Made by a program: the position numbers and the translations under genes. Source: Oscillospiraceae bacterium (GTDB lineage: Bacteria; Bacillota; Clostridia; Oscillospirales; Oscillospiraceae). From it: DNA of 64,000 nt. Within the stretch, counting starts at the first letter, position 1, and each line of letters starts with the position of its first letter. The notes under the pieces were generated by a model. It was not told the origin of the DNA, made no database searches, and worked only from the letters and a program-made list of their open reading frames with translations. Below, piece by piece: positions 17,441 through 54,319 of this stretch. Where the stretch lies: assembly GCA_009785525.1 (NCBI GenBank), contig WQWC01000002.1, positions 1-64,000 of the forward strand, given 5' to 3'.

Positions 17441-17921
17441 CCTGGACGGCACACTGTTTCAGGCAAAGCCGGTGTTTCGTCTCGCCGGAGAAGGCGTTGA
17501 TTTTTCGTTGGAAAAACTGCTGGATTCCGTAAGCGCTGCCGGGGAGCTTTTCCCCGGCGCTTTTGAGGTTGTGCAACTTCTGCACACGGCGGGATATCGG
17601 ATGTATATCTGCTCCCAAAGCCCGGCGGCATATATTGAAAAAGTCCTCGAACACACGGGAATATCCCGTTTCTTCGAGGGTTATAAAAGCGCGGAGGGGT
17701 ACGACTCAAAATCAAAACCAATCCGCGAACTGGCGCAAGGGCACCCGGCAATAGTGATAGGCGACACCCATGGCGATATAACCGCCGCAAAGCAAAACGG
17801 CATGAAATCAATTGCGGTTATGTATGGATACGGCAACAAAGCGCTGCTGGCCCCGGCTGATGCGTTTGCGGAATCGCCGGGGGGTATTGTTAGGTGCGTA
17901 GAGTGGATTATGCGACTGTAG
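17424..17921 (+). CDS. HAD-family phosphatase (phosphoglycolate phosphatase-like)
   Basis: A 165-residue haloacid dehalogenase hydrolase. Motif I is IFDLDGTLF at the very N-terminus, motif II ICSQS, motif III the lysine in SKSKPIREL, and motif IV VIGDTHGDITAAKQNG. The DLDGT position fixes the start at ATG 17424 or the next codon, overlapping the ftsK stop by 17 bases. A cap of about 60 residues suggests a small-molecule phosphatase. Its stop codon TAG (17919-17921) is part of the family A repeat end CTGTAGGGAC, so the repeat abuts or supplies the C-terminus. Confidence 0.85.
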   Translation: MMLIFDLDGTLFQAKPVFRLAGEGVDFSLEKLLDSVSAAGELFPGAFEVVQLLHTAGYRMYICSQSPAAYIEKVLEHTGISRFFEGYKSAEGYDSKSKPIRELAQGHPAIVIGDTHGDITAAKQNGMKSIAVMYGYGNKALLAPADAFAESPGGIVRCVEWIMRL

Positions 17922-18050
17922 GGACGGCCGGGTTGTTTGATTGACCATGTGCGGAAGAACTGCCGCACCATGTAGGGGACGATGGTAATCGTCCCTGCAC
18001 AACAATGGTAAACGGCGTAATCTACCGGGCGGATTGCCATCCGCCCCTAC
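17918..18050. repeat. Family A palindromic repeat, composite copy
   Basis: It starts GTAGGGACGG and ends CATCCGCCCCTAC. In between are a second GTAGGGGACGATGGTAATCGTCCC unit and GGGCGGATTGCCATCCGCCC, so it looks like two or three repeat units side by side. Its left end supplies the TAG of the HAD gene and its right end, on the other strand, the TAG of the activase gene. Confidence 0.85.
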
Positions 18051-18949
18051 AACGCTCCCGCCGCGCCTGCAAACGCGGGGAGTCTGTACTCCCTGCGCAG
18101 CATATCGGCCAAACGAATCAACTCCCGCTCCCATGCTTCACGGGATGGAAACTCGTAGCCCTCCATTGGATATGCAAGTCCCAGCGCGGCGTATTTTTCC
18201 GTACCCAGCGGGCGGTACGGCAGAAACTGCAGTGCCTCGACTCTGCCGCCAAGTGCGTCCCGCACAAATTCCCCGATTGCGCGGATATCACGTTCGTCGG
18301 AGTTAAATCCTGGTACTACAGGCGTGCGGATTACAAGTTTTTTGCCCAGCTCCACAGTTCGGATCAAGTTACGCAGAATTAGCTCGTTCCCCTGACCGAT
18401 TACGGCCCTAATCTTATCGCTGTCCATGTGCTTCAAGTCGGCTATCACTAAATCCGTATACCGATAAACCGCCTCCATATGCTCTGCGGGGCAGTAAAGT
18501 GCGGTTTCTATACAGGTGTTTATTCCGGATTTTTTGCAGGACTTTAACAATTCTGCGGCAAACTGCCATTGAAGCATAACCTCCCCGCCGGTGAGCGTAA
18601 CGCCGCCGCCGGTACGATCATAGAAACTGCGGTCGCTTTCGATTATCCGCATAAGCTCCGGAACAGCTTTCCACTCGCCAAAAAGTTTTTTAGCCCTCGG
18701 CGGGCAAATTTCAGCGGCGGATTCTGGGGATAGCCCGGCGCAAAGACCACATTTTTCCTCCCCTATGCACAGCGCTGGATAAAACCCAAGTCGGGGGCGC
18801 ATCTCAAGGCATTCCGGATTAGAGCACCAAGGGCAATTCAGCGGACAGCCCATAAAGAACGCCGATGTCCGGATCCCCGGCCCGTCGTGAATAGAATAAT
18901 GCTGCACGCGGCTAATCAGCCCGCGCAAATCGTTTGGATGTGTTTGCAT
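18047..18949 (-). CDS. Glycyl-radical enzyme activating protein (radical SAM)
   Basis: A 300-residue radical SAM enzyme of the pyruvate-formate-lyase-activase family, which installs a glycyl radical on a partner enzyme. The start ATG 18949 gives LISRVQHYSIHDGPGIRT followed by GCPLNCPWCSNPE with the CxxxCxxC cluster (Cys35, 39, 42). An insert with four further cysteines (CIGEEKCGLC...CPP) points to an extra iron-sulfur site, as in activases of dehydratase- and decarboxylase-type enzymes rather than PFL itself. TLTGGEVMLQ is the SAM-binding glycine motif. No glycyl-radical enzyme gene lies in the window, so the partner is unknown. The start codon overlaps that of the divergent mobA by 2 bases. 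The TAG stop lies in a family A repeat. Confidence 0.88.
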   Translation of the reverse strand: MQTHPNDLRGLISRVQHYSIHDGPGIRTSAFFMGCPLNCPWCSNPECLEMRPRLGFYPALCIGEEKCGLCAGLSPESAAEICPPRAKKLFGEWKAVPELMRIIESDRSFYDRTGGGVTLTGGEVMLQWQFAAELLKSCKKSGINTCIETALYCPAEHMEAVYRYTDLVIADLKHMDSDKIRAVIGQGNELILRNLIRTVELGKKLVIRTPVVPGFNSDERDIRAIGEFVRDALGGRVEALQFLPYRPLGTEKYAALGLAYPMEGYEFPSREAWERELIRLADMLRREYRLPAFAGAAGAL

Positions 18950-19529
18950 GAATACTAAACTCCCGGTGATAATTTTAGCAGGAGGCAAAAGCCGCAGGAT
19001 GGGGCGGGATAAACTCGCGCTGAAAATCGGCGACAGCACGCTTTTGCAATCTATTGTAACACGATTCTCCCAAAACTTCAAAGTATACCTCAGCGTCGCC
19101 GATGTTACGAAATACCCGGAGATTGAGGCCGAGCGTATTGCCGATATCCACAAAGGCGCCGGGCCTATCGGCGGGCTTTTCTCGGCGTTGACGGCAGTAT
19201 CGGCTGACGGCGTATTCCTGACAGCGGCTGATTTACCAAATGTCACAGCGGAGGCGGCGCTTCGCGTGTGCGAACTATCGCAAGACTGCACCGCCGGAGT
19301 AATACGCCTGCCGGACGGGCGGCTGGAGCCGCTGTTCGCGTTCTACAGCTGCAAACTGCTGGACCAATGCAGGCGATTGATTGAACAAGGCGACTATCGA
19401 ATGACAGAAATTTTACGTGCCGATGGGGTGCGATTCATAGAACTGCATGAACTCGGCGAGCTCTGGAACGAAAATCTGCTGAAGAATGTAAATTATCCTG
19501 AGGATTATCTTGAAATATCGGGCGGGTAG
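18948..19529 (+). CDS. mobA: Molybdenum cofactor guanylyltransferase MobA
   Basis: A 193-residue nucleotidyltransferase that attaches GMP to molybdopterin to make the guanine dinucleotide form of the cofactor. The N-terminal signature LAGGKSRRMGRDKL, the GPIGGLFSAL segment and the metal-binding TAADLPN are all present. The ATG at 18948 has no strong ribosome site and overlaps the divergent activase start; a later start would cut the signature, so it is kept. No other cofactor genes or molybdoenzymes are in view, and MobA-like proteins of other specificity cannot be excluded. Confidence 0.85.
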   Translation: MNTKLPVIILAGGKSRRMGRDKLALKIGDSTLLQSIVTRFSQNFKVYLSVADVTKYPEIEAERIADIHKGAGPIGGLFSALTAVSADGVFLTAADLPNVTAEAALRVCELSQDCTAGVIRLPDGRLEPLFAFYSCKLLDQCRRLIEQGDYRMTEILRADGVRFIELHELGELWNENLLKNVNYPEDYLEISGG

Positions 19530-19559
19530 TGCTAGAATGTTAAACATAATTGTGGGAAC

Positions 19560-19582
19560 GGGCGGCCACAGGCCGCCCCTAC
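19560..19582. repeat. Family A half repeat
   Basis: A single hairpin half, GGGCGGCCACAGGCCGCCC followed by CTAC, between mobA and the cupin gene. Confidence 0.8.
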
Positions 19583-19610
19583 ACGAATACAAAAAAGGAC
19601 GGTTGAACAC

Positions 19611-19976
19611 ATGAGTTATAAGATCACACGCAGAAATGAAGCTGTTACTTACGAGGCGCCGGGCCACTTCGACGTACGCACAACAAGGCTGCATGATGTC
19701 GGCGATGTAAACTCCGGCATAGTCACAATGGGCTTGAGCCACTTCCTGCCGGGCGGCAAAACTACTTATGGTGCGAACACTAAAGAGACGATCTATTACG
19801 TGGTTGATGGGCAGATGTATATTGAGAGCGAAGTCGATACCCCAAACGAAGTTAAGACAACGCTGTATGCCGGAGATTCATATCACTGCGGCCCGAACAC
19901 AAAAAAATCAGTACTGAACAACGGCGCGACAGCCTGCCAGATGTTAGTCGTGCTGATAACCCCGCCGGAAGCGTAA
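19611..19976 (+). CDS. Cupin-domain protein
   Basis: A 121-residue single-domain cupin (double-stranded beta-helix). The two conserved cupin segments appear as LSHFLPGGKTTYGANTKETIYYVVDGQMYI and LYAGDSYHCGPNTKKSVLNN, each split here by the natural domain order. Cupins bind a metal and act as isomerases, dioxygenases or sensors; the usual metal histidines are partly replaced here (only one His in the second motif), so catalysis is uncertain. AAGGA precedes the ATG. The next gene starts 2 bases after its stop, so the two form a unit. Confidence 0.8.
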   Translation: MSYKITRRNEAVTYEAPGHFDVRTTRLHDVGDVNSGIVTMGLSHFLPGGKTTYGANTKETIYYVVDGQMYIESEVDTPNEVKTTLYAGDSYHCGPNTKKSVLNNGATACQMLVVLITPPEA

Positions 19977-19978
19977 TC

Positions 19979-21622
19979 TTGCTGAAATTATCGAACATCC
20001 GGTTAACTGAAAAACTCGATATCCCCGCCTTGCGTAAAATCGCGGCGGGGATTTTGGGCATTGCGGAGACTGAGGTCAACAACCTCTCAATCCAGAAACT
20101 GTCTATAGATGCCCGCAAAAAACCGCGCGTTGAGTTTGTGTATACGCTCATAGCGGAGGTCACGAATGCGCGGACTTTAACCCTCAAAACCAACGTATCT
20201 TCATACATTCAGCCGGAGCCGTATCAGTTCCCGCAACCGCGAGCTGCGATAAAACCTGTAATCGTCGGCACAGGACCGGCAGGATTATTCGCGGCGCTGT
20301 GCTTGGCTGAAGCCGGAATCAAATGCGTGATTCTTGAACGCGGAAAGCCGGTGGAAGAGCGAATTCGGGATATCTCGCGCTTCTGGCTGACGGGGGAATT
20401 AGACCCGGATTCCAACGTACAGTTCGGCGAAGGCGGCGCGGGCACATTTTCAGACGGCAAGCTGACAACCGGGATTTCCGACCCGCGTGTGCGGTACGTG
20501 TTTGAACGATTGGCTGAATTCGGCGCACCGGATGAAATTCTGTACTTAGCCAAGCCGCATGTTGGGACGGACAACCTGCGCGGCGTGGTGAAACGTATCC
20601 GAGAGCGGCTGATTGAACTCGGCTGTGATATCAGATTTGGCCACCGGCTTGTGGATATCGAAGTCTCGAACACACAATTGCAGAGCATCACCGTGGAAGC
20701 CGGGGACGCGCGCTACTCCATCGAAACGGACAAGCTGATTCTCGCGCCCGGTAACAGCGCACGCGATACATTTGAAATGCTGCACAAGCGCGGGGTTCAA
20801 CTTTTGCCGAAAAACTTCTCCGTCGGTGTGCGGATAGAACATTTGCAGAGTGAGATTGACAGATCACAGTATGGCACGGCACCCGTAGGGGCGATTATCA
20901 ATCGCCCGCGGATGACCACCACCAGCCGTCCGCGGGCGGCAGATTGCCGCCCCTATGTCTCATCTCATAGTATCCCCGCGTCAGATTACAAGCTGGTAAC
21001 GCACTTGCCCAATGGGCGGAGTGTCTACACATTCTGCGTCTGCCCCGGCGGATACGTCGTTGCCTCATCGTCAGAGCAATCCGGGGTCGTCACAAACGGC
21101 ATGAGCGAGTTTTTGCGCGATGGCACAAACTGCAACGGCGCGATTCTGGCGGCAGTTACGCCGGAAGACTTCGGACACGCTCCGCTGGCGGGAATCGAAT
21201 TCCAGCGCAAGCTTGAACACGCTGCGTTCATGGCAGGCGGCGGGAATTTTCACGCCCCTGCCCAATTGGTGGGGGACTTTCTGCGAAGAATTCCATCCAC
21301 AGGCGCGGGCAAAGTATCCCCAACCTACCGCCCGGGTGTGAGGTTCTGCAATCTGTGGGACGTGTTGCCGGAGCTTATCTGTGAAGCAATTGCTGATGCG
21401 TTACCTGACTTTGCCCGACGGGTCTCGGCGTTCGGCACCCCCGACGCAGTGCTGACGGCGGTAGAATCTCGCAGCTCCTGCCCTGTGAGGATTGAGCGGG
21501 AGGATTGCGAGACAGTCGGCATCCACGGAATCTTCCCTTGCGGCGAGGGGGCCGGATATGCGGGGGGCATAATATCAGCCGCAGTTGACGGTATGCGCTG
21601 CGCGGAGGCAGTCAACATGTAG
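19979..21622 (+). CDS. FAD-dependent oxidoreductase (COG2509 type) with an in-frame repeat insertion
   Basis: A 547-residue protein of the family of uncharacterised FAD-utilising dehydrogenases. Residues 1-75 form the small N-terminal domain usual in this family. The dinucleotide-binding motif is VGTGPAGLFAA (glycines from 97). VQFGEGGAGTFSDGKLTTG, HVGTDNLRGVVKRIR and the C-terminal FPCGEGAGYAGGIISAAVDG are family hallmarks. It starts with TTG, 2 bases after the cupin stop, with GGAAG upstream. Residues about 303-327 are encoded by a complete family A repeat (20885-20956), inserted in frame between QYG and the SDYKLVTHLPNGR segment. The reading frame is preserved, so the protein may be functional with an extra loop. 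Confidence 0.85.
   Translation: MLKLSNIRLTEKLDIPALRKIAAGILGIAETEVNNLSIQKLSIDARKKPRVEFVYTLIAEVTNARTLTLKTNVSSYIQPEPYQFPQPRAAIKPVIVGTGPAGLFAALCLAEAGIKCVILERGKPVEERIRDISRFWLTGELDPDSNVQFGEGGAGTFSDGKLTTGISDPRVRYVFERLAEFGAPDEILYLAKPHVGTDNLRGVVKRIRERLIELGCDIRFGHRLVDIEVSNTQLQSITVEAGDARYSIETDKLILAPGNSARDTFEMLHKRGVQLLPKNFSVGVRIEHLQSEIDRSQYGTAPVGAIINRPRMTTTSRPRAADCRPYVSSHSIPASDYKLVTHLPNGRSVYTFCVCPGGYVVASSSEQSGVVTNGMSEFLRDGTNCNGAILAAVTPEDFGHAPLAGIEFQRKLEHAAFMAGGGNFHAPAQLVGDFLRRIPSTGAGKVSPTYRPGVRFCNLWDVLPELICEAIADALPDFARRVSAFGTPDAVLTAVESRSSCPVRIEREDCETVGIHGIFPCGEGAGYAGGIISAAVDGMRCAEAVNM
20885..20956. repeat. Family A palindromic repeat inside a coding region
   Basis: Left half GTAGGGGCGATTATCAATCG then CCCGCGG; right half CCGCGGGCGG, AGATTGCC, GCCCCTATG. 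The halves are mutually inverted and each forms its own hairpin. It is 72 bases, a multiple of three, and it is read in frame in the FAD oxidoreductase gene. Confidence 0.9.
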
Positions 21623-21669
21623 TTATGACTGTTGAATTTGTAAAAATCGAATAAAAACCACGAAATTAC

Positions 21670-21698
21670 TTGACTTGGGTTGCGCCAGAGTATAGAAT
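21670..21698 (+). promoter_or_regulatory. Promoter of the BKACE cluster
   Basis: TTGACT-N17-TAGAAT, about 75 bases before the cyclase ATG at 21772. TTAGGAGG is the ribosome site. Confidence 0.65.
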
Positions 21699-21771
21699 TT
21701 GGTTTAGTTGTAAAATAGACTTGCTATGCGGTCTGATAATTGAAGTTTATAATATTTAGGAGGACAAAACT

Positions 21772-22674
21772 ATGGCATATATGCCGCTTGACAAAAGCAA
21801 ACTACACCTTGACAGATCGAAGATGACAAAAATTTATGACCTCTCGGCCCCCTGGGGATCGGATACCCCGCTGTGGCCATTCCCTGGTGTAAGGCAAGAT
21901 CTGCTGTTCCCGCGCGGACAGTATCTGGAGCGGTTCCACAAGCGCACCATGACGTATACCGGAACGCTTCACGCGGGGACGCATATGGATGCGCCGAACC
22001 ACGTCTTGCACGAAGAAGAAGTGGACAGGCCGCGCAACGGGTACAGCCTGGATGAAATTCCGCTTGAATACTGCATCGGTTCCGGTGTTGTTCTTGATAT
22101 GAGATATCTCAAAGACGAGTTCAACGCAAAGTGGGACGCCGCGGGCGGCGACCCGAAAAAATTCGGGGAGATTTGGGTTGAGCTGAAGCCGGAGCATTTT
22201 GAGAAAGCCCTGAAAAAAGACGGGCTTGAAATCCGCGAGAATGACTGGGTTGTTGTCAATACCGGGTTCCAACATTTTTGGCGGCTCAACAACGACAAAT
22301 ATTACAACTACTATCCTGGCATGGGGCCTGATGTCGCTAAATGGCTGATTTTTGAGAAGAAAATCAAAGGTATCGCCGGCACTTGGGGCGCGACAGACGC
22401 ACCGCTGTGGCACCATCCGCTGAAAGAGCAAATGCCTTGGTTGGATGAGAACTATCGCACAGCGACAGGCAAAGACCCGACTGTCGAGTATCCGGATTAC
22501 GAGCCCTGCCACCGCCTGTTCATGCAACATGGTGTCTGCACGATTGAAAACGCCGGCGGCAACATGGACGAAGTGACAGGCAAACGCATGACAATCGCCG
22601 CATTCCCGTTCAGATGCGAAATGGCCGACGGTGGGTTTGTAAGGCTGGTTGCTTGGGAAGAGGGCTCGTTTTAG
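21772..22674 (+). CDS. Cyclase-family metal-dependent hydrolase (KynB-like fold)
   Basis: A 300-residue member of the cyclase superfamily that includes kynurenine formamidase and isatin hydrolase. The metal motif HAGTHMDAPNH (residues 67-77) is intact, with IYDLSAPWGSDTPLWP upstream and WGATDAPLWHHP, EPCHRLFMQHGVCTIEN downstream. Family members hydrolyse amide or lactone bonds with zinc or manganese. It is the first gene of a cluster with a hydroxyacyl-CoA dehydrogenase-like protein, BKACE and a CoA-transferase, so it may open a ring or cleave an amide to deliver a beta-hydroxy acid. The substrate is unknown. Confidence 0.85.
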   Translation: MAYMPLDKSKLHLDRSKMTKIYDLSAPWGSDTPLWPFPGVRQDLLFPRGQYLERFHKRTMTYTGTLHAGTHMDAPNHVLHEEEVDRPRNGYSLDEIPLEYCIGSGVVLDMRYLKDEFNAKWDAAGGDPKKFGEIWVELKPEHFEKALKKDGLEIRENDWVVVNTGFQHFWRLNNDKYYNYYPGMGPDVAKWLIFEKKIKGIAGTWGATDAPLWHHPLKEQMPWLDENYRTATGKDPTVEYPDYEPCHRLFMQHGVCTIENAGGNMDEVTGKRMTIAAFPFRCEMADGGFVRLVAWEEGSF

Positions 22675-22699
22675 GTCTTTTTACTCTGACTTAAGGAGA

Positions 22700-22817
22700 C
22701 ATCCCCCTTTCCCCCTTCGTGCGCGAAGGGGGCTTGAGACGAAGGACGAAAGACGAGATTGGTTTTCCCTTGCCCCCATCCAAAGCCCCCTTCGCGCACG
22801 AAGGGGGAAGGGGGATG
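22700..22817. repeat. Family C palindromic repeat with long terminal inverted repeats
   Basis: The left end CATCCCCCTTTCCCCCTTCG and the right end CGAAGGGGGAAGGGGGATG are parts of about 35-base inverted repeats that differ by one base. Each arm itself contains the hairpin CCCCCTTCG-tgcg-CGAAGGGGG. About 45 unrelated bases lie between the arms. It separates the cyclase and dehydrogenase genes. Confidence 0.85.
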
Positions 22818-22858
22818 CCCTTTTCGCCTGACCCGCAAATTTTACACAGGAGTGAGTT

Positions 22859-23821
22859 ATGAAAACATTAAACGATATAAAGAAAATCGCCGTACTGGGC
22901 GGCGGAACCATGGGGCCCGGGATTGCGCAGATGTTCTCTATGGGCGGATTCCCCGTTACACTGTGGACACGCAGTGAGAAAACGCTGGATCAAGCGAGGG
23001 AAACTCTGCATAGCAGCCTGAAAACTTTCGTAGAAGAAGATCTGCTGGAGGCCGGCAAACTTGACGAAACGTATAACCGCGTGACTTTCACGAATAACCT
23101 GAGCGACGCAGTCCGCGGCGCGGATTTTATCATGGAAACGATTGTCGAGAACAAAGACGCGAAAACAGAGCTGTTCAACAACATTGACGCGGACATCGGT
23201 GACAACGCCATCGTAGCGTCCAACACATCGGGGCTTGATGTGTTTGCGCTGATGCCTAAACATAGGCTGAAGCAGGCGGTCATAGCGCACTGGTATTCCC
23301 CGCCGCAGCTTATCCCGCTGGTGGAAGTCGTCAAATGCGAAGAGGCTCCGCAGGAATATTGCGATATTACAGTTGATCTGCTTGAAACATGCGGCAAAAC
23401 TGCTGTTGTGATGAAAAAGTTTATTCAGGGATATATCGCCAACCGTATGCAGATGTGTCTGAATCAGGAGCTGTTTTATCTCTTAGACAACGGTTACTGC
23501 ACGCCGGAGGATATTGACAAAGCTGTGAAGACAAGCTTTATCCCCCGCGCCGTTGTGCTGGGCCTGTGCAAACGCGCCGATTTCGGCGGACTTGATATGA
23601 CGGCCAACAACTTTAAGAACAAAAGTTACACAATGCCGCCTGAAGTCGATATGCCGACCAGTCTGCAAGGCTATCTCGACAGGGGCGAGCTTGGTTTCAA
23701 AACCGGCAAAGGCTTCTATGACTATTCCGGTGAGGACAAGCAAGAATTGCTTGCCAAACGCGACAAACAGCTGTTTGAGGCTTTTAAGCTGGCTAAAAAG
23801 TTTATGGATGATCCTGTATAA
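22859..23821 (+). CDS. 3-hydroxyacyl-CoA dehydrogenase-family protein
   Basis: A 320-residue NAD-dependent dehydrogenase. The N-terminal Rossmann motif is IAVLGGGTMGPGIAQMF (GGGTMG 14-19). The catalytic part shows SNTSGLDVF and the family histidine in IAHWYSPPQLIPLVEVV (His144), followed by the helical C-terminal domain with YIANRMQMCLNQE and GELGFKTGKGFYDYS. HWYSPP in place of the usual HFFNP puts it with the lambda-crystallin, carnitine-dehydrogenase or L-gulonate-dehydrogenase-like branch rather than with classic Hbd. In this cluster it would oxidise a beta-hydroxy acid to the beta-keto acid used by BKACE. GGAGTGAG precedes the ATG. Confidence 0.88.
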   Translation: MKTLNDIKKIAVLGGGTMGPGIAQMFSMGGFPVTLWTRSEKTLDQARETLHSSLKTFVEEDLLEAGKLDETYNRVTFTNNLSDAVRGADFIMETIVENKDAKTELFNNIDADIGDNAIVASNTSGLDVFALMPKHRLKQAVIAHWYSPPQLIPLVEVVKCEEAPQEYCDITVDLLETCGKTAVVMKKFIQGYIANRMQMCLNQELFYLLDNGYCTPEDIDKAVKTSFIPRAVVLGLCKRADFGGLDMTANNFKNKSYTMPPEVDMPTSLQGYLDRGELGFKTGKGFYDYSGEDKQELLAKRDKQLFEAFKLAKKFMDDPV

Positions 23822-23857
23822 GGAGGGCGCATTGCGCGTCCGTCCAGGCGCACCCTT

Positions 23858-23946
23858 GTAGGGGCGGATACCCACATCCGCCCGTTATTACCGCAATTAC
23901 CACAAATACGTCGATATTTCGGGACGATGTGGGCATCGTCCCCTAC
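23858..23946. repeat. Family A palindromic repeat
   Basis: It runs from GTAGGGGCGGATACCCACATCCGCCC to GGGACGATGTGGGCATCGTC-CCCTAC; both halves form hairpins with different cores. A further partial unit (GGGCGCATTGCGCG) lies just upstream near 23825. It lies inside the BKACE cluster. Confidence 0.88.
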
Positions 23947-23981
23947 AACGATTACCAAACAAATATGAAAGGATGTTTAAT

Positions 23982-24893: not shown

Positions 24894-24909
24894 ATTGTAA
24901 ACTATTAAG

Positions 24910-28239: not shown

Positions 28240-29310
28240 CTACTTCCACAACTGAACATACCCCCTGTCATTCAGCTGCTTCAGTACAACAAGGCCAATC
28301 GGAAACAGCACCATACCGAACACACCTATCGTGGAAAACCCGATATACATTGCCAGCAGCGTCGTAATCGGCGGCAGGCCGATTTGACTGCCCACCAGCT
28401 TTGGTTCCAGTATATTGCGCACAATCGCAATCACGCCGAACGTGATAACAAGCGTGACGGCGCGGGCAAAGTTGCCGGTGATAAGTGAGACAATCGCCCA
28501 GGGGACAAGTATGCTGCCCACCCCAATCAATGGAATCAAGTCGATTATTGCGATTATCAGCGCCAAGACTATCGCGAATTGAATCCGCAGTATCAAAAAC
28601 GCGATGAGCAGCTGTATAAACGCGGCACCGGATAACATCGCCTCTGCCTTAAACCATTTGCCGAACACACGGACAAGCCCGGTGCGGAACTCGCGCACGG
28701 CTTTGTGCCGGTCTTCCGGCAACTGGCGCATGATAAACGCCGCGACATCGCTGTATCCGCTTGAGATAAAGTATGTGCTGACGGCACAAGTGAAGATAAA
28801 TATGGCAATCCGTGGGCTGAAAGAAGCGGCTGACGTGATAAGTCCCAACAGCCAACCCGTGGCGGTGCCCAAAAAATCGGAACCAGCGTTTGCGAATGCG
28901 TCCAGCGCGTTTTGAAAGTAATCCTGCATTTCAAGCGGCGCGCTTGTGATGTATACGTTAATCCTGTCGCGCATGTCTGAAATAAACGATGAAACCTCCG
29001 TCAGCAGCGCCGGCAAATCCCGCGCCAGCGCCGTCAGTTCATAGATAATCCGCCAGATAATAGCGACTGTCAGGGCTATCAATGCCAAAAAAACCAGAAC
29101 GGTGCACAAAGCCGAGGCAATTGCCCGCTTGAATTTCAACTTTTTTGTAAAGAGTCTGACAAGCGGCTCTATAAGCCTGGAGATCACGAACGCGATTATA
29201 AACGGCAGCAGCCACGGCAGCGCGTACTTAAACAAAAGCCACACGGCGAGTACGCCCAAGGCAAAATAGACAAGCTTCAACCCGCGCCGCAGATGCTTAT
29301 TCTCCGGCAT
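28240..29310 (-). CDS. ytvI: AI-2E-type transporter, YtvI family
   Basis: A 356-residue membrane protein of the AI-2E/PerM family with about eight hydrophobic segments. ALGVLAVWLLFKYALPWLLPF and the long extracytoplasmic loop between ELTALARDLPALLTEV and AISTYFISS-type sequence match sporulation integral membrane protein YtvI. The C-terminal half has the family signature IAIIDLIPLIGVGSILVPWA. Transport activity of YtvI is not settled in Bacillus. It is a single gene convergent with ychF-DUF1624. GGTGCAGC-type spacing upstream gives only a modest ribosome site (AGAGGTG). Confidence 0.85.
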   Translation of the reverse strand: MPENKHLRRGLKLVYFALGVLAVWLLFKYALPWLLPFIIAFVISRLIEPLVRLFTKKLKFKRAIASALCTVLVFLALIALTVAIIWRIIYELTALARDLPALLTEVSSFISDMRDRINVYITSAPLEMQDYFQNALDAFANAGSDFLGTATGWLLGLITSAASFSPRIAIFIFTCAVSTYFISSGYSDVAAFIMRQLPEDRHKAVREFRTGLVRVFGKWFKAEAMLSGAAFIQLLIAFLILRIQFAIVLALIIAIIDLIPLIGVGSILVPWAIVSLITGNFARAVTLVITFGVIAIVRNILEPKLVGSQIGLPPITTLLAMYIGFSTIGVFGMVLFPIGLVVLKQLNDRGYVQLWK

Positions 29311-32159: not shown

Positions 32160-32190
32160 GTAGTTAGTTTCAAGCACAGTGCGCCTTATA

Positions 32191-32297
32191 ACCACCCCGG
32201 CGGCTTCGCCGCCACCCCTCCAAGGAGGGGAATGGGACGAGGATGCCGCACCAAAATTCCCCTCCCGCGGAGGGGTGCGCCGCAGGGTCAGGGTGGT
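32191..32297. repeat. Family B palindromic repeat
   Basis: It begins ACCACCCCGGCGGCTTCGCC, contains CCCCTCCAAGGAGGGGAA and its inverse TTCCCCTCCCGCGGAGGGG, and ends in AGGGTGGTCCC. Nested complementary arms can fold into one long cruciform. It fills most of the lysC to URO-D gap (32160-32371). Confidence 0.88.
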
Positions 32298-40038: not shown

Positions 40039-40101
40039 AACAAGCCTCCAAACAGCATAATTATTAGTGATTCGTGAATTAAAATCGGGGGAGGTGTGCA
40101 A

Positions 40102-40890
40102 TTGTCCGGTACAACAAAAATAATAATCGCAGCCCCTCCTGAGTTTGAGCGTGTTGTTGCGAATTCCGGCGGCATTGTTGCCCATATGAGCTACAGGATA
40201 GGACACGGCTTCCGGCTGTACCGTTCACAGCGCGCGTCCGGCATACACGGCGGACTTATGGTTCTTGATACCGACGGATTCACCGGCGGCGGACCGCTAG
40301 CGTCGTTGATTGCCGATATAATCAGCGAATGCGGCAGGAGAGCTTTTACAGGCATAATAATCAACGCTGGGGCCAGTTCAGCTTCACCCACGCAGATATC
40401 GCTTTCCGCGGCACTGGCGAAAGAGGCGGCTAAACACGATCTTGCGTATTTCGTGCCGGAGACTTTGTCCGAAACCGGGGATCGCACGATTGTCCGCATC
40501 TCGGCGGCAATTTCCGGCGGGACGCTGAATCGGCGGCTTGCCGACGCCATCGAAAAATACGGTGTGGATCGCCTGGCAATTGAGACAGAGCGCGTCCGGG
40601 TGGACTTTACGCTCCCGGCTATGACCGGGGTGGGGCGCGAGTTATCGAATGCCGAGTTCCGTGTGCTTATTGACAGATATGACCCAAAGTCATTTTTCTC
40701 CCCGGAGTTGATGGTGAATTATTTTACATATCACAACGAGCACGGCACGCATTTCGTCTTGCACGACAACGCGGAAAGCCTGCGGCGCAAGCTGACAGCC
40801 GTGTCAGACGCAGAAATTGAACACGCTTTTTTATTCTATCCGCGCGTTGCTGACATATTCGGTGAAATATTTGCAACCGACAACCCTTAG
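40102..40890 (+). CDS. Conserved-looking hypothetical protein, possible TIM barrel
   Basis: A 262-residue protein I do not recognise. Alternating short hydrophobic strands and helices (HGGLMVLDTDG, FTGIIINAGAS, HDLAYFVPETL, RLAIETERVRVDFTLPA, AFLFYPRVADI) suggest an alpha/beta barrel, possibly glycosidase-like. The TTG at 40102 sits 7 bases after GGGGAGG and is the likely start; a GTG at 40096 overlaps that site. It is divergent from yqeG with only 63 bases between. The stop TAG (40888-40890) coincides with the edge of a family A repeat. No signal peptide. Confidence 0.6.
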   Translation: MSGTTKIIIAAPPEFERVVANSGGIVAHMSYRIGHGFRLYRSQRASGIHGGLMVLDTDGFTGGGPLASLIADIISECGRRAFTGIIINAGASSASPTQISLSAALAKEAAKHDLAYFVPETLSETGDRTIVRISAAISGGTLNRRLADAIEKYGVDRLAIETERVRVDFTLPAMTGVGRELSNAEFRVLIDRYDPKSFFSPELMVNYFTYHNEHGTHFVLHDNAESLRRKLTAVSDAEIEHAFLFYPRVADIFGEIFATDNP

Positions 40891-40972
40891 GGACACAGTG
40901 TGCGCCCGCAGATTTCATTGCGCCTTTTGATCGTTGCGCGTAGTTAGCGGGCGAACAATGTTCGCCCCTACA
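40887..40972. repeat. Family A palindromic repeat between convergent genes
   Basis: Left end TTAGGGACACAGTGTGCGCCC, right end GGGCGAACAATGTTCGCCCCTAC. Its two ends hold the stop codons of the two convergent genes (40888-40890 plus strand; 40968-40970 minus strand). Confidence 0.88.
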
Positions 40973-42643: not shown

Positions 42644-42660
42644 AGACAAAAACACCGTCC

Positions 42661-42690
42661 ACAGCCCCCTTCGCGCACGAAGGGGGCTGT
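42661..42690. repeat. Family C hairpin at the end of azlCD
   Basis: ACAGCCCCCTTCG and CGAAGGGGGCTGT pair perfectly around CGCA, 3 bases after the azlD stop codon. It may end or protect the azlCD transcript. Confidence 0.85.
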
Positions 42691-44926: not shown

Positions 44927-45096
44927 CTGTAGGGGCGAACTGTGTTCGCCCGCCGTCTCCTCGATTCCAATGCAAGGAGAACCCTTGTAGGGGCGGTCAT
45001 TGTCCGTCCGTGAAAGCCGTTGCACCGCCGCAGTGCGTTCATTGACCGTACACCTAATAACAGGGGACGGCGGACGCACAATGCGCGCCCCTACAG
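44927..45096. repeat. Family A long repeat with 12-bp terminal inverted repeats
   Basis: ACTGTAGGGGCG at the left is complementary to CGCCCCTACAGT at the right. Inside are GGGGCGAACTGTGTTCGCCC and further units (GTAGGGGCGGTCATTGTCCG; GGACGCACAATGCGCGCCCC). The right end supplies the stop codon of mal. Confidence 0.88.
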
Positions 45097-46332
45097 TGCG
45101 TCTTTAAGCGCCAATATCCTATTCATCTCATTAAAAACGATCATAAACCCTTCGTCAACGCCCATGCCGGGCTTTGCCAGAATTTGCGCTGGTTTTGTCG
45201 CCATTGCGATATGCGCCGATACTTGGGCTGACCTATCCGTCTCATTGCAAGTCCCGCCTAAGTACGCGCCGAAATCATTTTGTTTGCAGTACAGCACGGC
45301 CTCTATTGAGTTATCGATGCCGCCGAGATCGGGAGTTTTTACCTGCGCCATGTGCCCGGCTTTGGCGTTTGTGAACTCGATGACATCCTCCACCGTGTTA
45401 CACCATTCGTCCGCCACGATTTCGCACTGAGTCCCCTGTTTGTCCAGCATTTCCCGAAGCTTTGCCAACCCCTCGATCTGCGCACCACGGGAGCCTAGGT
45501 CAATTGGCCCCTCTATCCGCACCGCTAACGGCGACGCGGCTTTTGCGACCTTATCAAGACATTTTGCTATCTTATCCAGGTCGTTGCCGAACTCAAGCCC
45601 CATTGTTCCGTACACGTCAATATGCAATATGGGGTTGTACCCAGCGTAAGGCGCCAGCTGCTCCGTGCGTTTGGCAAGCCAGGCGACGTATTCTATCAGC
45701 GTTTCGCCGTTTTGTCCCAGCTTTTTCAGGTTGTTGATCAGTCCGTGCGGCAAAACATCCGCGCCTTTTATCACCATGCTGTCCACATTTTTGTACCGCT
45801 CATCACCAGATTGCGAAAATATCGGGATCAGCTTGTCTGATACGGCAAGACCGTACTCTTCCGCGACAATTTTAGCCATGATAGTCTTCCGGCTCTTCGC
45901 GACAGCGTCCAGAATCGCCTGGGTGACGCCGTATCTGATGGCTGTGTGAAGCAATCCGCCCGTTTGGGAGTTTATGTGCTTATCGGCAAGGTGAGCCATG
46001 TCTTTAAAGTTGGTAATTTCACGCCCAACAAAAAGCGGCTTGATCTCACGCTCAATAATCGGTATGAAATCCGCCGCCAGAAACAGCGGGTCGCGTCCGC
46101 CCGCGCCCGAATATTGCACAGCCGCGCAATCGCCAAAAGCGATTTGCCCGTCGTCCAGGATAAACATCACCGATACTGATTCACCGGCCATGCGTATTTT
46201 TGTAAAACCCTCTGTCACCGGCTCACCGATATAAGTATTGCCATCCTCACGCGCACCGGCTTTGATAGCGGCCTGGTCATCAAAGAAAAACCCTGTATAT
46301 CCTGGTGCGCACACTATATCTTTAATCTTCAT
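45091..46332 (-). CDS. mal: Methylaspartate ammonia-lyase
   Basis: A 413-residue enolase-superfamily enzyme (EC 4.3.1.2) that deaminates (2S,3S)-3-methylaspartate to mesaconate in glutamate fermentation. YTGFFFDDQAAIKAGA at the N-terminus, HIDVYGTMG, RIEGPIDLGSR and EIVADEWCN carry metal ligands, and MAQVKTPDLGG holds the catalytic lysine (Lys332, equivalent to Lys331 of the Clostridium enzyme). It follows glmE in the glutamate mutase operon; together they convert glutamate to mesaconate and ammonia. The TAG stop is part of a family A repeat. Confidence 0.96.
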   Translation of the reverse strand: MKIKDIVCAPGYTGFFFDDQAAIKAGAREDGNTYIGEPVTEGFTKIRMAGESVSVMFILDDGQIAFGDCAAVQYSGAGGRDPLFLAADFIPIIEREIKPLFVGREITNFKDMAHLADKHINSQTGGLLHTAIRYGVTQAILDAVAKSRKTIMAKIVAEEYGLAVSDKLIPIFSQSGDERYKNVDSMVIKGADVLPHGLINNLKKLGQNGETLIEYVAWLAKRTEQLAPYAGYNPILHIDVYGTMGLEFGNDLDKIAKCLDKVAKAASPLAVRIEGPIDLGSRGAQIEGLAKLREMLDKQGTQCEIVADEWCNTVEDVIEFTNAKAGHMAQVKTPDLGGIDNSIEAVLYCKQNDFGAYLGGTCNETDRSAQVSAHIAMATKPAQILAKPGMGVDEGFMIVFNEMNRILALKDAL

Positions 46333-47921: not shown

Positions 47922-49291
47922 ATATCTTCCTTGTTCATAAGTTCTTTTTTCATAATTGACAGAGCCGATTTTTTGTCCACCCTAGTCAAAAGCCCCATGG
48001 CTGTCAGGATATTGTTTCTGTCGATTATAATTTTCGGATTCTCAGGCTTCAGTATATCATAATCCGCTTTGGAATACAGCGCTTTCGCCATGATATCTTC
48101 CGGCGCGTCACTGTTTATAACGCTGCCGCCGGTGCCGAAAAGATACTTTGTCTTTGTCAGGTCTTTGCCTGTTTGTATCTGCACTTCGCCCATGTTCGTG
48201 TACACAGTTTCAAGACGGCCCGCGTGACGGTTCATTGATATCCGCACGCATTCACCAGCTAAGGCGTTGTCTATTTTCGCGTCTGTTGAGCCCGGTGGGA
48301 ACACGGCACTCGTGTCTTGTGCGCACTTTCTACTATGCTCTATCACATCTTCCGGTGATGCGCCAGAGGCAGCTGCTATACGCTCAATCCCAGCCTCTTT
48401 AATCAGGCTGTCGATACTGTATCGTACGCCTAAATCACCTTCTATAGACCTTTTGGCAAATGGTTCGCGGAGACCTTTTTCTATAACCGCCGAGTTTTCC
48501 GGCAGCCCATCCGCCATTGAGTATACGTCCGTTGTCGCACCGCCAACATCGACTGCCGTGAGCGTCCCAAAGTCACTCAATGCCTCACACGCATTGAACA
48601 CGGCAAGCGGTGTCGGAATAATCTCCAGCGACATCATCGCGTTTGCTTCCGCGAGGCCTTTCGCGTCTATGATCCGCCGTATAAACAGCTCCCGAATCGC
48701 GGCCTTGGCAGATTCAATATTCAGCTTGTTTAGCTCCGGCATTACGTTTTCGGTGATGACAGCTTCTTTCCCGCCGCTTTCAAGAATCCGCGCGACTTCG
48801 TCCGCCGCCGACTTGTTCCCCGCGACAACGACCGGGAAACTGCATTCAATCCGGGCGATTTTTTCGGCATTGTTCAGTATCACGTCTTTGTTGCCGCCGT
48901 CTATACCGCCGGATAGCAGTATCATGTCCGGTTTGTAGTCAAAAATCTCCGCAAGTTCGGCGTCAGACAAGTCGTAAGAATACGTCGCGATAAGTTTCGC
49001 CCCGGCGGAGCTTGCCGCCAATTTCGCCGCGTTCGACGTAAGGCGCGGGACTAATCCCACCGCTATCATCTTCAAACCGCCGGCCGCACTGCTCGCTGCG
49101 AGGCGTTTGTCGTAGTCAAGCCGCCCTATATCCTTTTCGAGCTTATCAAGCGCATTAGCGTACCCATCAAGAATGTTGGTCTGAACCGTTGTATACGCCG
49201 CGCTTGTACCCAGGGTTCGCAAATCTTGCATGTCGATTGCGGTAAGCTTTGTATACGTGCTTCCGAAATCCGCGCACAGTATATATCTCAT
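47918..49291 (-). CDS. glmL: Methylaspartate mutase accessory protein GlmL (MutL)
   Basis: A 457-residue ASKHA-type ATPase found with glutamate mutase, thought to reactivate or protect the B12 enzyme. [20 protein letters not shown] is the phosphate-1 region, [27 protein letters not shown] and [14 protein letters not shown] complete the nucleotide-binding site, and [10 protein letters not shown] lies near the end. ATG 49291 is chosen by homology; a TTG at 49303 would overlap glmS by 8 bases. It lies between glmS and glmE in the usual order. Confidence 0.94.
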
Positions 49292-49295
49292 ATCG

Positions 49296-49709
49296 CTAGC
49301 CAATGCCCAGGTCGCTTTTTATTTCCGCTATTTCTTCGTCAAGATCGGCGCTTGGCGGATACACCCGGTCAAACCCCATGTTTTTGAAAGTCTTCTCCAC
49401 CTGCGTGAAATCGGCCTTGCCGACAACAAGGTTGCCGCCCACATACAGGCGGATATCGCCAATCCCGGCCTCCTGACATTTCTCCCGCAATCCTCTGCAA
49501 TCTATATCTCCGTGACCGTAGAGCGATGAAACCAAAATAGCGGCCGCGTCAGATTCGATCGCCGCCTCGATAAACTCTTCCTGACTTACCATAACACCGA
49601 GGTTAATCACGGTAAATCCGGCATTTGTGAACGCAAAGTCCAGAATCTTGTTGCCTACAGCGTGAACATCCGCGCCAATCACACCGAGAACAACCGTAGA
49701 TGCTTGCAT
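49296..49709 (-). CDS. glmS: Glutamate mutase sigma (B12-binding) subunit
   Basis: A 137-residue cobalamin-binding subunit of methylaspartate mutase. The base-off/His-on motif DxHxxG is present as [11 protein letters not shown] (Asp14, His16, Gly19), followed by [11 protein letters not shown] and [12 protein letters not shown], which line the nucleotide-tail pocket. GGAGGAG precedes the ATG. It is the first gene of the operon glmS-glmL-glmE-mal. No cobalamin riboswitch is seen in the leader. Confidence 0.96.
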
Positions 49710-49774
49710 ACTCTATTCTCCTCCAAAATGTCCGTTTAGTGCTATGATCATGTGTGCTGATTTTTGGTCAATGA

Positions 49775-49803
49775 ATTGTATCATTGGGATTGTTGAAAGT
49801 CAA
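49775..49803 (-). promoter_or_regulatory. Promoter of the glutamate mutase operon
   Basis: TTGACT-N17-TACAAT on the minus strand, about 65 bases before the glmS ATG. Confidence 0.75.
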
Positions 49804-49823
49804 GTGGATACCATGTAGATAGA

Positions 49824-49916
49824 ACCATTCCACCCCTCCGCGGGAGGGAAATTTTGGCGCGGCATTTTTCCATTCCCCTCCTTGGAGGGGTGCCGTCCGC
49901 AGACGGCGGGGTGGTT
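49824..49916. repeat. Family B palindromic repeat
   Basis: ACCATTCCACCCCTCCGCGG then GAGGGAAATTTTGG, followed by ATTCCCCTCCTTGGAGGGG and TGCCG...CGGCGGGGTGGTT. It abuts a family A copy at its right end. Confidence 0.85.
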
Positions 49917-49996
49917 GTAGGGGCGGCCATGGGCCGTCCGTGGTATTTGCCATGGTTTCGGTGTGCCGGGGAACGGCGGACGCGCAATGCGCGCCC

Positions 49997-50000
<4 letters not shown>
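49917..50000. repeat. Family A palindromic repeat at the end of typA
   Basis: GTAGGGGCGGCCATGGGCCG on the left and GCGCAATGCGCGCCCCTAC on the right. The final CTA is the complement of the typA stop codon (49997-49999). Confidence 0.88.
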
Positions 50001-51811
<1,811 letters not shown>

Positions 51812-51850
51812 ATGTGTATGTCCTTTCTGATTTTGACACGATAACAATAT

Positions 51851-51879
51851 AGTATACCACGCACGCGGCGATTCGGCAA
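51851..51879 (-). promoter_or_regulatory. Promoter of typA
   Basis: TTGCCG-N17-TATACT on the minus strand, about 40 bases upstream of the TTG start. It is back to back with the promoter of the radical SAM gene, with 5 bases between the two. Confidence 0.75.
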
Positions 51880-51884
51880 ATATA

Positions 51885-51913
51885 TTTACAGCGGCAGTAA
51901 ACTGTGTTATAAT
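51885..51913 (+). promoter_or_regulatory. Promoter of the radical SAM/TIGR03915 pair
   Basis: TTTACA-N17-TATAAT on the plus strand. A family B repeat lies between this promoter and the gene, so the repeat is transcribed as leader RNA. Confidence 0.75.
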
Positions 51914-51930
51914 GATTGCACGAAATGGGG

Positions 51931-52035
51931 AACCACCCCGTCGGCTTCGCCGCCACCCCTCCAGAGGAGGGGAATGGGTAATGCCGCACAAAATTCCCCT
52001 CCTTCGGAGGGGTGTCCCGAAGGGGCGGGGTGGTT
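51931..52035. repeat. Family B palindromic repeat in a 5' leader
   Basis: ACCACCCCGTCGGCTTCGCC...CCCCTCCAGAGGAGGGGAAT, then AATTCCCCTCCTTCGGAGGGG and CCGAAGGGGCGGGGTGGTT. It can fold into a long hairpin about 40 bases before the next ATG. Confidence 0.88.
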
Positions 52036-52075
52036 CTTCCGTAACTGCAATCGAAGCAGCGGAGGAAGTCTCGAG

Positions 52076-53386
52076 ATGGACTTGATGGAGAAACTGACAA
52101 TCTTAACGAACGGCGCGAAATATGACGCGGCGTGTACTTCGTCCGGCTCGGACCGGCAGGGGAATACGCTGCCTGCCGGGTGCTGTCACTCGTTCTCCGC
52201 CGATGGGCGATGCATTAGTCTGTTGAAAATCCTGATGACGAATCACTGCGTTTATGATTGCAAATACTGTGTCAACAGATCAAGTAACGACTGTGAGCGC
52301 GCGACATTTACCCCTGCGGAACTCGCCGAACTGACGATAGAATTCTATAGACGCAATTATATTGAGGGGCTGTTCCTGTCCAGCGGCGTCTTAAAAAACC
52401 CGGATTATACGATGGAGCAGATGATACGCGTTATCGAAATTCTGAGATATGAACACAATTTCTGGGGATACATCCACGCGAAAACAATCCCTGGCGCGTC
52501 ACCGGAGAACGTGAGAAGGCTTGGATTCCTTGCCGACCGCCTGAGTATAAACATAGAATTGCCGAGCGAGCAGAGTTTGAATCTTCTGGCCCCCGGCAAA
52601 GACAAGCAGGCGATACTATCGCCGATGAAGCAGATACGAATTGAAGGTGAGCAAAATACGCGCGAACTCGCCGTCTATAGACATGCACCGAAATTCGCGC
52701 CGGCGGGACAGGCGACACAGATGATTATCGGCGCGAGCCCGGAATCCGATTACCAGATAATCCGCCTTGCGTCCGCGATGTACGGCAAATACGAACTGAA
52801 ACGTGTGTTCTACTCCGCATATATCCCAGCTATGGAGCATTCACTGCTGCCCGCGATTGATTCAAAGCCGCCGCTGTTGCGGGAGCACCGGCTATATCAG
52901 GCGGATTGGCTGATGCGACAGTACGGCTTTGACGCGGAGGAGATTTTGTCGCCAGAAATGCCGAACTTCAACCCGTATATGGACCCGAAATGCAACTGGG
53001 CGATCAACAATATGCACCTGTTCCCGTGCGATGTGAACGCCGCATCGTTGGAGGAATTACTGAGAGTTCCAGGTATCGGCCCCACCGGCGCGAAACGGAT
53101 TGTATCTGCGAGGAAAAACGGCAAGCTCGGCATGGCGGAATTAAAACGTATCGGCGTGGTACTAAAACGCGCGCAGTATTTTATACTCACGACTGACACT
53201 CCAGCGGGATCGCGCATGAGCCGCGACCTTGCCGCGCGGGCGCTGATCGATCCAAAGATTTACGCATTCGGGATGGAGCAAATGTCGCTGTTCGACGACA
53301 TTCAGGGACTGCCCGGTGCGCAGGATGTCGCATCAATACCGGACGCTGTGGAGGAGGCGGTGCTGTGCCTGGCCACGAATTTTTAA
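52076..53386 (+). CDS. Putative DNA modification/repair radical SAM protein (TIGR03916-like)
   Basis: A 436-residue radical SAM enzyme with a helix-hairpin-helix tail. LLKILMTNHCVYDCKYCVNR supplies the CxxxCxxC cluster cysteines, GLFLSSGV a SAM-binding strand, and VNAASLEELLRVPGIGPTGAKRIVSARK a DNA-binding HhH motif. The ATG at 52076 follows GGAGG at 10 bases; upstream in-frame codons are family B repeat. It overlaps the next gene by 22 bases. Proteins of this type are regularly paired with a TIGR03915 partner and are proposed to act in DNA repair or modification; the reaction is not established. Confidence 0.9.
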   Translation: MDLMEKLTILTNGAKYDAACTSSGSDRQGNTLPAGCCHSFSADGRCISLLKILMTNHCVYDCKYCVNRSSNDCERATFTPAELAELTIEFYRRNYIEGLFLSSGVLKNPDYTMEQMIRVIEILRYEHNFWGYIHAKTIPGASPENVRRLGFLADRLSINIELPSEQSLNLLAPGKDKQAILSPMKQIRIEGEQNTRELAVYRHAPKFAPAGQATQMIIGASPESDYQIIRLASAMYGKYELKRVFYSAYIPAMEHSLLPAIDSKPPLLREHRLYQADWLMRQYGFDAEEILSPEMPNFNPYMDPKCNWAINNMHLFPCDVNAASLEELLRVPGIGPTGAKRIVSARKNGKLGMAELKRIGVVLKRAQYFILTTDTPAGSRMSRDLAARALIDPKIYAFGMEQMSLFDDIQGLPGAQDVASIPDAVEEAVLCLATNF

Positions 53387-54180
53387 TCAAGCCCGCCGAC
53401 GTTGTTTACGTGTATGACGGCAGCTTTCCAGGGTTCCTGTGCTGTGTGCATGAAAGTGTGTATGCCTCGGAACTGCCGTTTGACATATTCCCCGACACCG
53501 ATGACGCGCCGCTGTCACTGATGGACGTAAAATATATCGAGACGGACGACGATAAAGCCCGGCGCGTTCACGCGTCTATACCCGCCAAAATATCAAAGCG
53601 TGCGGCAGAGCTCACACGCACGGTGTTTTTGAGTTGTATGAAACAGAAAGAACTGCGCCTGCTTGAGTTCCTGCTTCGCGCGTATCGTGAGGGCGGCGCG
53701 ATGCTCAACAATTTCGGCGACGCGATAATTTCCCCGTTGCTAAAGGCGGAAAAACATCTTCTCGGTGAAGCGCATTTGCTGAAAGGCTTCGTGCGGTTCG
53801 CCGATGTCGGCGGCGGATTGGTCGCGACAATAACGCCGAAGAATTATATACTGCCGTTCATCTCGGGGCATTTTACAAGCAGGTTCCGGGACGAGGATTT
53901 TATGATTTTCGACAAGACAAACCGCGCCGCGCTGGTTCATCAGCGGAATCCCCAACGAATCGGAGACTCGTTGGAATGGGTGCACGGCAAAGGCGAAATT
54001 ATCCGGATTGATAGCATCGAGTTCCCGGAAGTTTCGGAGCAAGAGGCAAAGTATCAATCACTGTGGAAGCGGTTTTATGACACCGTCGCAATCGAAGGCC
54101 GAGAAAACCCGCGCTGCCGAATGACGCACATGCCGAGGCGCTATTGGGAAAATATGCTGGAAGTGAAGGATTCGCTGTAG
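53365..54180 (+). CDS. TIGR03915-family putative DNA repair protein (DUF4130)
   Basis: A 271-residue partner of the radical SAM gene. YVYDGSFPGFLCCVHESVYASE is the hallmark N-terminus; HLLKGFVRFADVGGGLVATITPKNYILPFISGHFTSRF and FMIFDKTNRAALVHQ follow, and the C-terminal MTHMPRRYWENMLE resembles a uracil-DNA-glycosylase-linked tail. The start is GTG 53365, about 8 bases after GGAGGAGG inside the radical SAM gene, so the two are translationally coupled. Function unproven. Confidence 0.88.
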   Translation: MPGHEFLIKPADVVYVYDGSFPGFLCCVHESVYASELPFDIFPDTDDAPLSLMDVKYIETDDDKARRVHASIPAKISKRAAELTRTVFLSCMKQKELRLLEFLLRAYREGGAMLNNFGDAIISPLLKAEKHLLGEAHLLKGFVRFADVGGGLVATITPKNYILPFISGHFTSRFRDEDFMIFDKTNRAALVHQRNPQRIGDSLEWVHGKGEIIRIDSIEFPEVSEQEAKYQSLWKRFYDTVAIEGRENPRCRMTHMPRRYWENMLEVKDSL

Positions 54181-54187
54181 AGTGACG

Positions 54188-54217
54188 AAAAGCCCGCGAC
54201 CATAAGTCGCGGGCTTT
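54188..54217 (+). terminator. Terminator of the radical SAM pair
   Basis: AAAGCCCGCGAC and GTCGCGGGCTTT pair perfectly around CATAA, 8 bases after the stop codon; the T-run is short. Confidence 0.85.
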
Positions 54218-54237
54218 GATGTTTGTCTACGTTCAAT

Positions 54238-54319
54238 GTAGGGGACAGCGTCCTCGACGTCCTGCGGTTGAGTGTTCCGCCGGGTTGATCATAGGGACAG
54301 ATATGGAATCCGCCCCTAC
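54238..54319. repeat. Family A palindromic repeat
   Basis: GTAGGGGACAGCGTCCTCGACGTCCTGC at the left and GGAATCCGCCCCTACGC at the right. The right end holds the stop codon of the ABC ATPase gene. Confidence 0.85.

Follow-up and report, generated by a model that had tools for sequence, protein, structure and literature searches.

The stretch of DNA analysed here (the window) covers 64 kb at the start of contig C2 in a 2.157-Mb assembly of an Oscillospiraceae bacterium (G000). A dispersed repeat within it ends in GTAGGGG followed by a hairpin, and the TAG of this end serves as the stop codon of genes on both strands. All seven TAGs named in the initial annotation were found to close an open frame, five of them lying in intact GTAGGGG hairpins and two in decayed copies. 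Six of the seven proteins have Pfam matches (HAD hydrolase, radical SAM, DUF951, methylaspartate ammonia-lyase, TypA/BipA and ABC ATPase); the seventh, encoded at 40096-40890, has no Pfam match but does have an orthologue in G017, the relative used for orthologue comparison, whose DNA identity to G000 is roughly 77-89%. A repeat end of the TAGGG/GTAGGG type is referred to below as a head, and its hairpin was scored, a score of at least 6 being counted as a hairpin. Thirty-two TAGGG heads in the window reach this score; four lie at a called stop, and that of the DUF951 gene is a fifth, missed by the gene caller.

The HAD-family gene (17385-17921) stops at TAG 17919-17921 within a decayed head, TAGGGACGGCC (17918..17940, + strand). 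Its G017 orthologue ends CTG-TAG with an intact hairpin of score 9, and a second repeat in G000, GTAGGGGACGATGGTAATCGTCCC (17972..17995, + strand), has its TAG 54 nt beyond the HAD stop. An intact repeat at 18027..18050 (− strand), with a hairpin of −16.7 kcal/mol, supplies TAG 18049-18047 to a radical-SAM activase gene (18047-19291). G017 reads TTG-TAA-GGGCGG at the end of this gene, where the GGGCGG is perhaps a relic of the repeat. The hypothetical gene 40096-40890 stops at TAG 40888-40890 in a decayed repeat end, CTTAGGGACAC (40887..40908, + strand), and the convergent partner of this repeat end, an intact repeat at 40949..40971 (− strand), provides TAG 40970-40968 to the DUF951 gene. As first annotated, these convergent genes share one repeat (40887-40972), and both of its ends are common to G017; the HAD and 40888 orthologues in G017 likewise end on TAG-GG. 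The mal gene (45091-46332) takes its stop, TAG 45093-45091, from an intact repeat of the GCGCGC subfamily (45072..45094, − strand), and the cluster downstream of mal contains two copies in the opposite orientation, at 44929..44951 and at 44987..45009 (both + strand, the latter scoring below 6). Another intact copy of the same subfamily (49978..50000, − strand) provides TAG 49999-49997 to typA and has an opposite-strand partner downstream of that gene at 49917..49939 (+ strand). The ABC ATPase gene (54316-55425) stops at TAG 54318-54316 of an intact repeat at 54295..54319 (− strand), again with an opposite-strand partner downstream (54238..54262, + strand), which scores below 6. Two weaker cases put forward at the same time did not hold: the stop at 28240 reads TAG-GGTGCGGG, with the repeat head located 27 nt past it, and at 61181 TAGGGGACATCCC has a hairpin score of 3.3 and the G017 orthologue ends in TAA.

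The excess of repeat TAGs at stops was counted in 1,216,025 bases of G000 (980 called genes, 281 hairpin-bearing heads) and 749,934 bases of G017 (658 genes, 67 heads). In G000 the TAG of the head is exactly the called stop in 25 of 281 heads, compared with 70 heads over all of the offsets 1-60 downstream of a stop, a mean of 1.17 per position (Poisson p about 1e-24 for 25). The corresponding figures for G017 are 11 of 67 heads at the stop and 23 over offsets 1-60 (0.38 each); of these 11, L217:17607 proved on reading not to be a repeat. At offsets −60 to −1, three G000 heads in all are read through by a gene, and only one of these (C19:33593; labels of this kind give contig and position in the G000 sample) looks like a true repeat; no head in G017 is read through within 60 nt. 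As a TAG is expected in frame one time in three, with two-thirds of heads out of frame, 25 against 3 (p about 1e-9, G000) and 11 against 0 (p about 6e-6, G017) represent a clear frame bias. Any frame entering the repeat would meet a TAG one time in three, so that gene calls might overlap such a repeat by artefact or chance; this explanation is hardly credible, as genes hardly ever read through a head out of frame, conserved families account for six of the seven window genes, and orthologues end at the same codon at 16 of 21 loci.

The stop codons themselves show the same trend. GGG directly follows 46 of 303 TAG stops, 17 of 397 TAA stops and 6 of 274 TGA stops in G000, and 26 of 174, 7 of 278 and 1 of 167, respectively, in G017. 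TAG makes up 303 of 974 stops in G000 and 174 of 619 in G017, compared with 22 of 220 in the typA loci of named genomes. Within the first 464 kb, a hairpin accompanies 81 of 166 GTAGGG heads, against 10 of 191 for the control head GATGGG, 14 of 223 for GGATGG, 11 of 175 for GTCGGG and 7 of 154 for GAAGGG. Placement by chance, which the initial annotation had thought unlikely from the window alone, is rejected by these control heads, by the stop-offset counts and by the frame bias; the feature is real and statistically strong. A lack of excess across the genome, named beforehand as a refutation, is not what these counts show: repeat TAGs are in excess at stops outside the window too, on both strands.

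In 450 kb of E. coli MG1655, only 1 of 80 heads resembling repetitive extragenic palindromes (REPs) supplies a stop, that of rcsC, compared with 25 of 281 in G000 (Fisher p 0.014), the E. coli heads having been found by sequence pattern without the hairpin test and 15 of the 80 lying inside called genes. A set of 80 typA loci from named genomes (425,903 bases in all, those of G017, G006 and G040 among them) contains 31 heads, none of which lies within 60 nt of a called stop on its strand, although such short loci give this comparison little power. The strength of the spike at stops may differ between lineages.

The repeat occurs on both strands in nearly equal numbers: the strict form, GTAGGGGCG-N(2-16)-CGCCC, is present in 54 forward and 53 reverse copies in G000, compared with 0 and 2 for the reversed pattern. 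Of the 40 genomes searched, 26 (counting G000) carry the strict form, with 37 copies in G017, 67 in G011, 70 in G014 and 25 in G006. Among 196 GTAGGGG elements, which were chosen by hairpin score, a choice favouring pairing, there are 54 different 5' arms; the 3' arms covary so that pairing is kept, and stem pairs 4-8 switch among GC, CG, AT and TA. The base preceding TAG is G in 76% of heads away from stops. Thirty-seven of the 281 G000 heads fall within a called gene, so that the copies are mostly intergenic, with 47 heads in 26.5 kb of convergent spacers versus 26 heads in 37.3 kb of divergent ones (11 heads in 9.1 kb versus 1 head in 19.6 kb in G017). An opposite-strand partner is present 30-250 nt downstream of 11 of 25 stop-supplying copies versus 106 of 195 other GTAG copies in G000, and of 5 of 10 versus 16 of 40 in G017; pairs are often arranged face to face, GTAG lying on the outer side of each copy. 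In the G000 sample, 7 of the 30 copies in the GCGCGC-stem subfamily coincide with a stop, versus 18 of the 251 others.

With its tag and hairpin, covarying stem, dispersed copies 3' of genes and inverted pairs, the repeat fits, as judged from sequence, the GTAG super-family of REP elements. As this super-family is described in a section of Di Nocera et al. 2013 (PMC3733652), it shares with our repeat the terminal GTAG, a short covarying stem-loop, dispersed copies located mostly between unidirectional or convergent genes, and dimers in opposite orientation. The hosts listed in one passage of that source are Proteobacteria, Cyanobacteria, Chloroflexi and the PVC (Planctomycetes-Verrucomicrobia-Chlamydiae) group, whereas the present lineage belongs to Bacillota. 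The REPs and bacterial interspersed mosaic elements of E. coli, placed there in the GTAG-3 family, also have the GTAG tag, the hairpin and paired inverted units downstream of genes, but they differ in how rarely they supply a stop, as counted above. An Rfam family was rejected as the identity of the repeat, as the only match in the window at gathering scores is a tRNA at 5250-5322.

Gene ends were compared for 36 cases with the head TAG at the stop (25 from G000 and 11 from G017). For twelve of these (10 and 2), the other genome offers no end for comparison within its sampled part, and the remaining 24 reduce to 21 loci when L217:17607 is dropped and two loci found from both genomes are merged; the DUF951 and 40888 cases of the window, both common to G017, stand outside this count. 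The stop codon is at the same position in both genomes at 16 of the 21 loci and differs by 1-6 codons at the other five. Ten loci have a TAG head at the stop in both genomes, the other genome reading TAG-GG in nine of them and TAG-TGGGCG at C19:23602, and the hairpin has decayed in one genome at several of these shared loci (HAD, C6:45818, C21:34430, L242:9819 and L250:6861). At the remaining 11 loci, the stop in the other genome stands without a repeat, and six of these genes still end at the same codon: C2:84001 (TAA), typA (TAG), mal (TGA), activase (TAA), C7:32865 (TGA) and L232:1331 (TGA). Orthologues that lack the repeat and stop at the same codon had been named beforehand as evidence against a role of the repeat in setting gene ends; they were encountered in these six cases but not in the other five. 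Accordingly, the mal and typA genes of G017 lack a repeat at the stop but terminate at the same codon, while for DUF951, the third protein singled out for alignment, the repeat itself is shared. For typA, the stop position is also the same in G006 (TAG) and G040 (TAA), neither of which has a repeat there; TypA identity to the nearest Oscillospiraceae assemblies is 93%, 87% and 85%.

Where ends differ, the protein in the repeat-carrying genome is shorter at C2:81787 (by 6 codons), the ABC ATPase (3), C8:5839 (4) and L232:2245 (1), and longer only at C2:111142 (by 1 codon). Such differences are not significantly more frequent than for genes with a repeat 1-60 nt downstream, of which 47 of 56 keep the same length and 9 of 56 differ (versus 5 of 21; Fisher p 0.51). 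The suggestion that the repeat has rewritten C-termini is therefore limited to at most five of 21 loci and to 1-6 codons; wholesale rewriting is not supported by the orthologue comparison, and the repeats appear mostly to occupy an existing stop position. These lengths also bear on the possibility that a repeat lying just downstream is captured as a backup stop once the original stop is lost or deleted. At C2:111142 and L232:1331 the other genome indeed has TGA, with a TAGGG head 14 and 12 nt downstream of it, respectively. Stop loss, however, predicts longer proteins in the repeat genome, which were seen at just one of the 21 loci, and the heads at C2:111142 and L232:1331 differ in stem between the genomes. 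We thus regard capture as very unlikely; it is disfavoured as a general route but could hold at single loci.

At four loci (C3:28751, C10:9604, C19:23602 and C10:28904) both genomes use the same TAG stop with what are, on reading, different stems, and at C3:28751 and C10:9604 only does the hairpin score at least 6 in both. It looks as if the stems had been exchanged while the tag stayed fixed. A hairpin retained at the same TAG with a different stem is what one would expect if TAG plus hairpin were kept as a useful end signal, acting in termination, ribosome stalling or protection of the mRNA 3' end. The folds of five window copies point the same way, four reaching −15 to −17 kcal/mol and the mal copy −13.2 (z-scores −1.3 to −4.1), and, as quoted in PMC12306157, ribosome stalling and lowered translation have been attributed to E. 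coli REPs situated within 15 nt of a stop. However, TTTT occurs within 12 nt after the hairpin in only 3 of 25 stop-supplying copies in G000 and in 0 of 10 in G017. As most hairpins have no T-run, they are not intrinsic terminators, and this form of the transcriptional end signal proposed in the initial annotation was rejected. In addition, the repeat is missing from the stop in the other genome at 11 of 21 loci, and the decayed hairpins at the shared loci listed above are not what a retained signal would predict. An end signal of this kind is, in our opinion, quite improbable.

The explanation that we favour, with somewhat better than even confidence, is that the copies at stops were inserted there, either at the stop codon itself or immediately upstream of it, and were kept where the TAG of the tag fell in frame. 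GTAG elements would insert at gene 3' ends; an in-frame tag would stop translation at once, allowing the copy to survive, and out-of-frame insertions would presumably be removed by selection. Arrival might be by insertion or by exchange between repeats, and the G of GTAG may already have been present at the target beforehand. Insertion combined with such a frame filter would explain the frame bias and also why the C-terminal changes are so small. The cleanest filled/empty pair is C2:84001, where both flanks align, including the start of the next gene: G017 reads AAATCG-TAA, then 18 nt and the ATG of that gene, and G000 reads AAATCG-TAG-GGGCG, then 256 nt holding repeats and the same next gene. 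This is the one locus aligned on both flanks across the two genomes, the others having diverged.

Several points weigh against this explanation: a frame filter alone predicts no excess at the stop, yet four clean cases with the same codon and no repeat in G017 lie at exactly that position (C2:84001, typA, mal and C7:32865), against 19 over 60 positions downstream; most pairs could reflect either gain or loss of a copy, the comparison being between two genomes, with outgroups for few loci; at C2:111142 and L232:1331, where a head lies 14 and 12 nt past the other genome's stop, the coincidence could have come about through a small deletion instead of an insertion; simple insertion gives no account of the four loci with different stems; and the genes were called by a home-made script, which missed the HAD and DUF951 genes, although that would make the window count at stops too low rather than too high.

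Since the exact stop is richer in heads than its neighbours, a further contribution is likely, either from a preference for this target or from copies persisting longer once they have become a stop. The machinery that moves the repeat might, for example, prefer stop codons as targets (G, then T-purine-purine), with the tag TAG replacing TAA, TGA or TAG in place. All three kinds of stop are indeed found in the repeat-free genome: TCG-TAA (C2:84001), GAC-TAG (typA) and ATG-TGA (mal), AGG-TGA (C7:32865) and GTG-TGA (L232:1331). Moreover, G000 heads away from stops have T at −2 in 60% and C at −4 and −5 in about 40%, and in other systems, according to a passage of PMC8266576, the GTAG tag helps to choose CT or CA cleavage sites. 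In the repeat-free genome, G precedes the junction at 7 of 9 readable sites, compared with 0.298 for all genes (p 0.004, post hoc); these sites were picked by readability afterwards, C2:111142 and activase being omitted and C8:5839 counted as not G. Nine sites are few, but a G before the junction would be expected if the target included the first base of GTAG. On the other hand, 5 of the 11 repeat-free comparisons are off the same codon, typA in G017 has C rather than G before its stop, and the E. coli heads are at a stop in just the one case of 80. A preference of the machinery for stop codons is, on this evidence, rather doubtful, and target preference at gene ends, as the initial annotation had proposed, is possible but unproven. 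A bolder version, in which the repeats would be portable stop codons that integrate at a G|stop junction, replace TAA, TGA or TAG and stay pinned there while their stems swap, all without a resident REP-associated tyrosine transposase (RAYT), we consider unlikely.

In the REPtron/RAYT (TnpA-REP) systems, as presented in parts of PMC8266576 and PMC2817692, GTAG and its palindrome are the substrate of TnpA-REP. Searching G000 with the Y1 transposase profile (PF01797) yielded only broken IS200-like pieces and no intact gene, and no match was obtained in G017, G024 or G011 despite their 37 to 520 strict copies. G024, a relative from the same family, has 520 strict copies in about 2.3 Mb without a PF01797 match. 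Some Y1 match is present in 17 of 40 genomes, and the repeat-carrying G014 and G006 have full-length ones. Unlike in the REPtron systems, GTAG hairpins are missing from the surroundings of the Y1 matches, both in the G000 loci and in 11 loci from relatives (L313-L323, with G014 and G006 among them); each locus spans about 1.5 kb on each side of the match, and further matches had no locus. Two other TAGGG heads at Y1 loci do not begin with G. A RAYT gene beside the repeats was accordingly rejected for the loci examined, and the searches, made on assemblies that are 85-96% complete, suggest that RAYT is absent from those without a match. The spread of REPs has itself been described as poorly understood (in a passage of PMC8266576).

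The window also holds other repeats. A second hairpin repeat, CCCCCTTCGCGCACGAAGGGGG, occurs at 22701-22816, 42655-42686 and 56655-56692, and a related stretch lies between GTAG repeats at C2:111142. A third family, CACCCCTCCAAGGAGGGGAATTTT, is present at 32190-32297, 49831-49918, 51931-52034, 56707-56814 and 60859-60993 and adjoins the GTAG repeats at typA. Two tandem open reading frames of 574 aa (1048-2772 and 3138-4862) are surrounded by 300-nt stretches 86-96% identical to each other at a spacing of 2,090-2,093 bp, and a run of TTGC units (6495-6606) lies at the start of a large open reading frame (6511-9042).

That GTAG REPs supply TAG stops is already known: their GTAG termini often provide the TAG stop to flanking open reading frames (Di Nocera et al. 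2013, PMC3733652). The section of that source containing this statement gives neither a count nor a null expectation; here such stops were counted and compared with orthologues. The papers listed by an exact-string literature search for the repeat head were all unrelated by title. What is new here is: the Bacillota host; the counted spike at stops; the orthologue test; and the finding of no Y1 gene with repeats beside it. About 1 in 11 sampled copies forms the stop of a gene in this lineage. With a close relative for filled/empty comparison and with no RAYT found, target choice and frame selection become testable in these bacteria, in which housekeeping genes such as typA can have their stop taken up by a repeat while the protein keeps its end.

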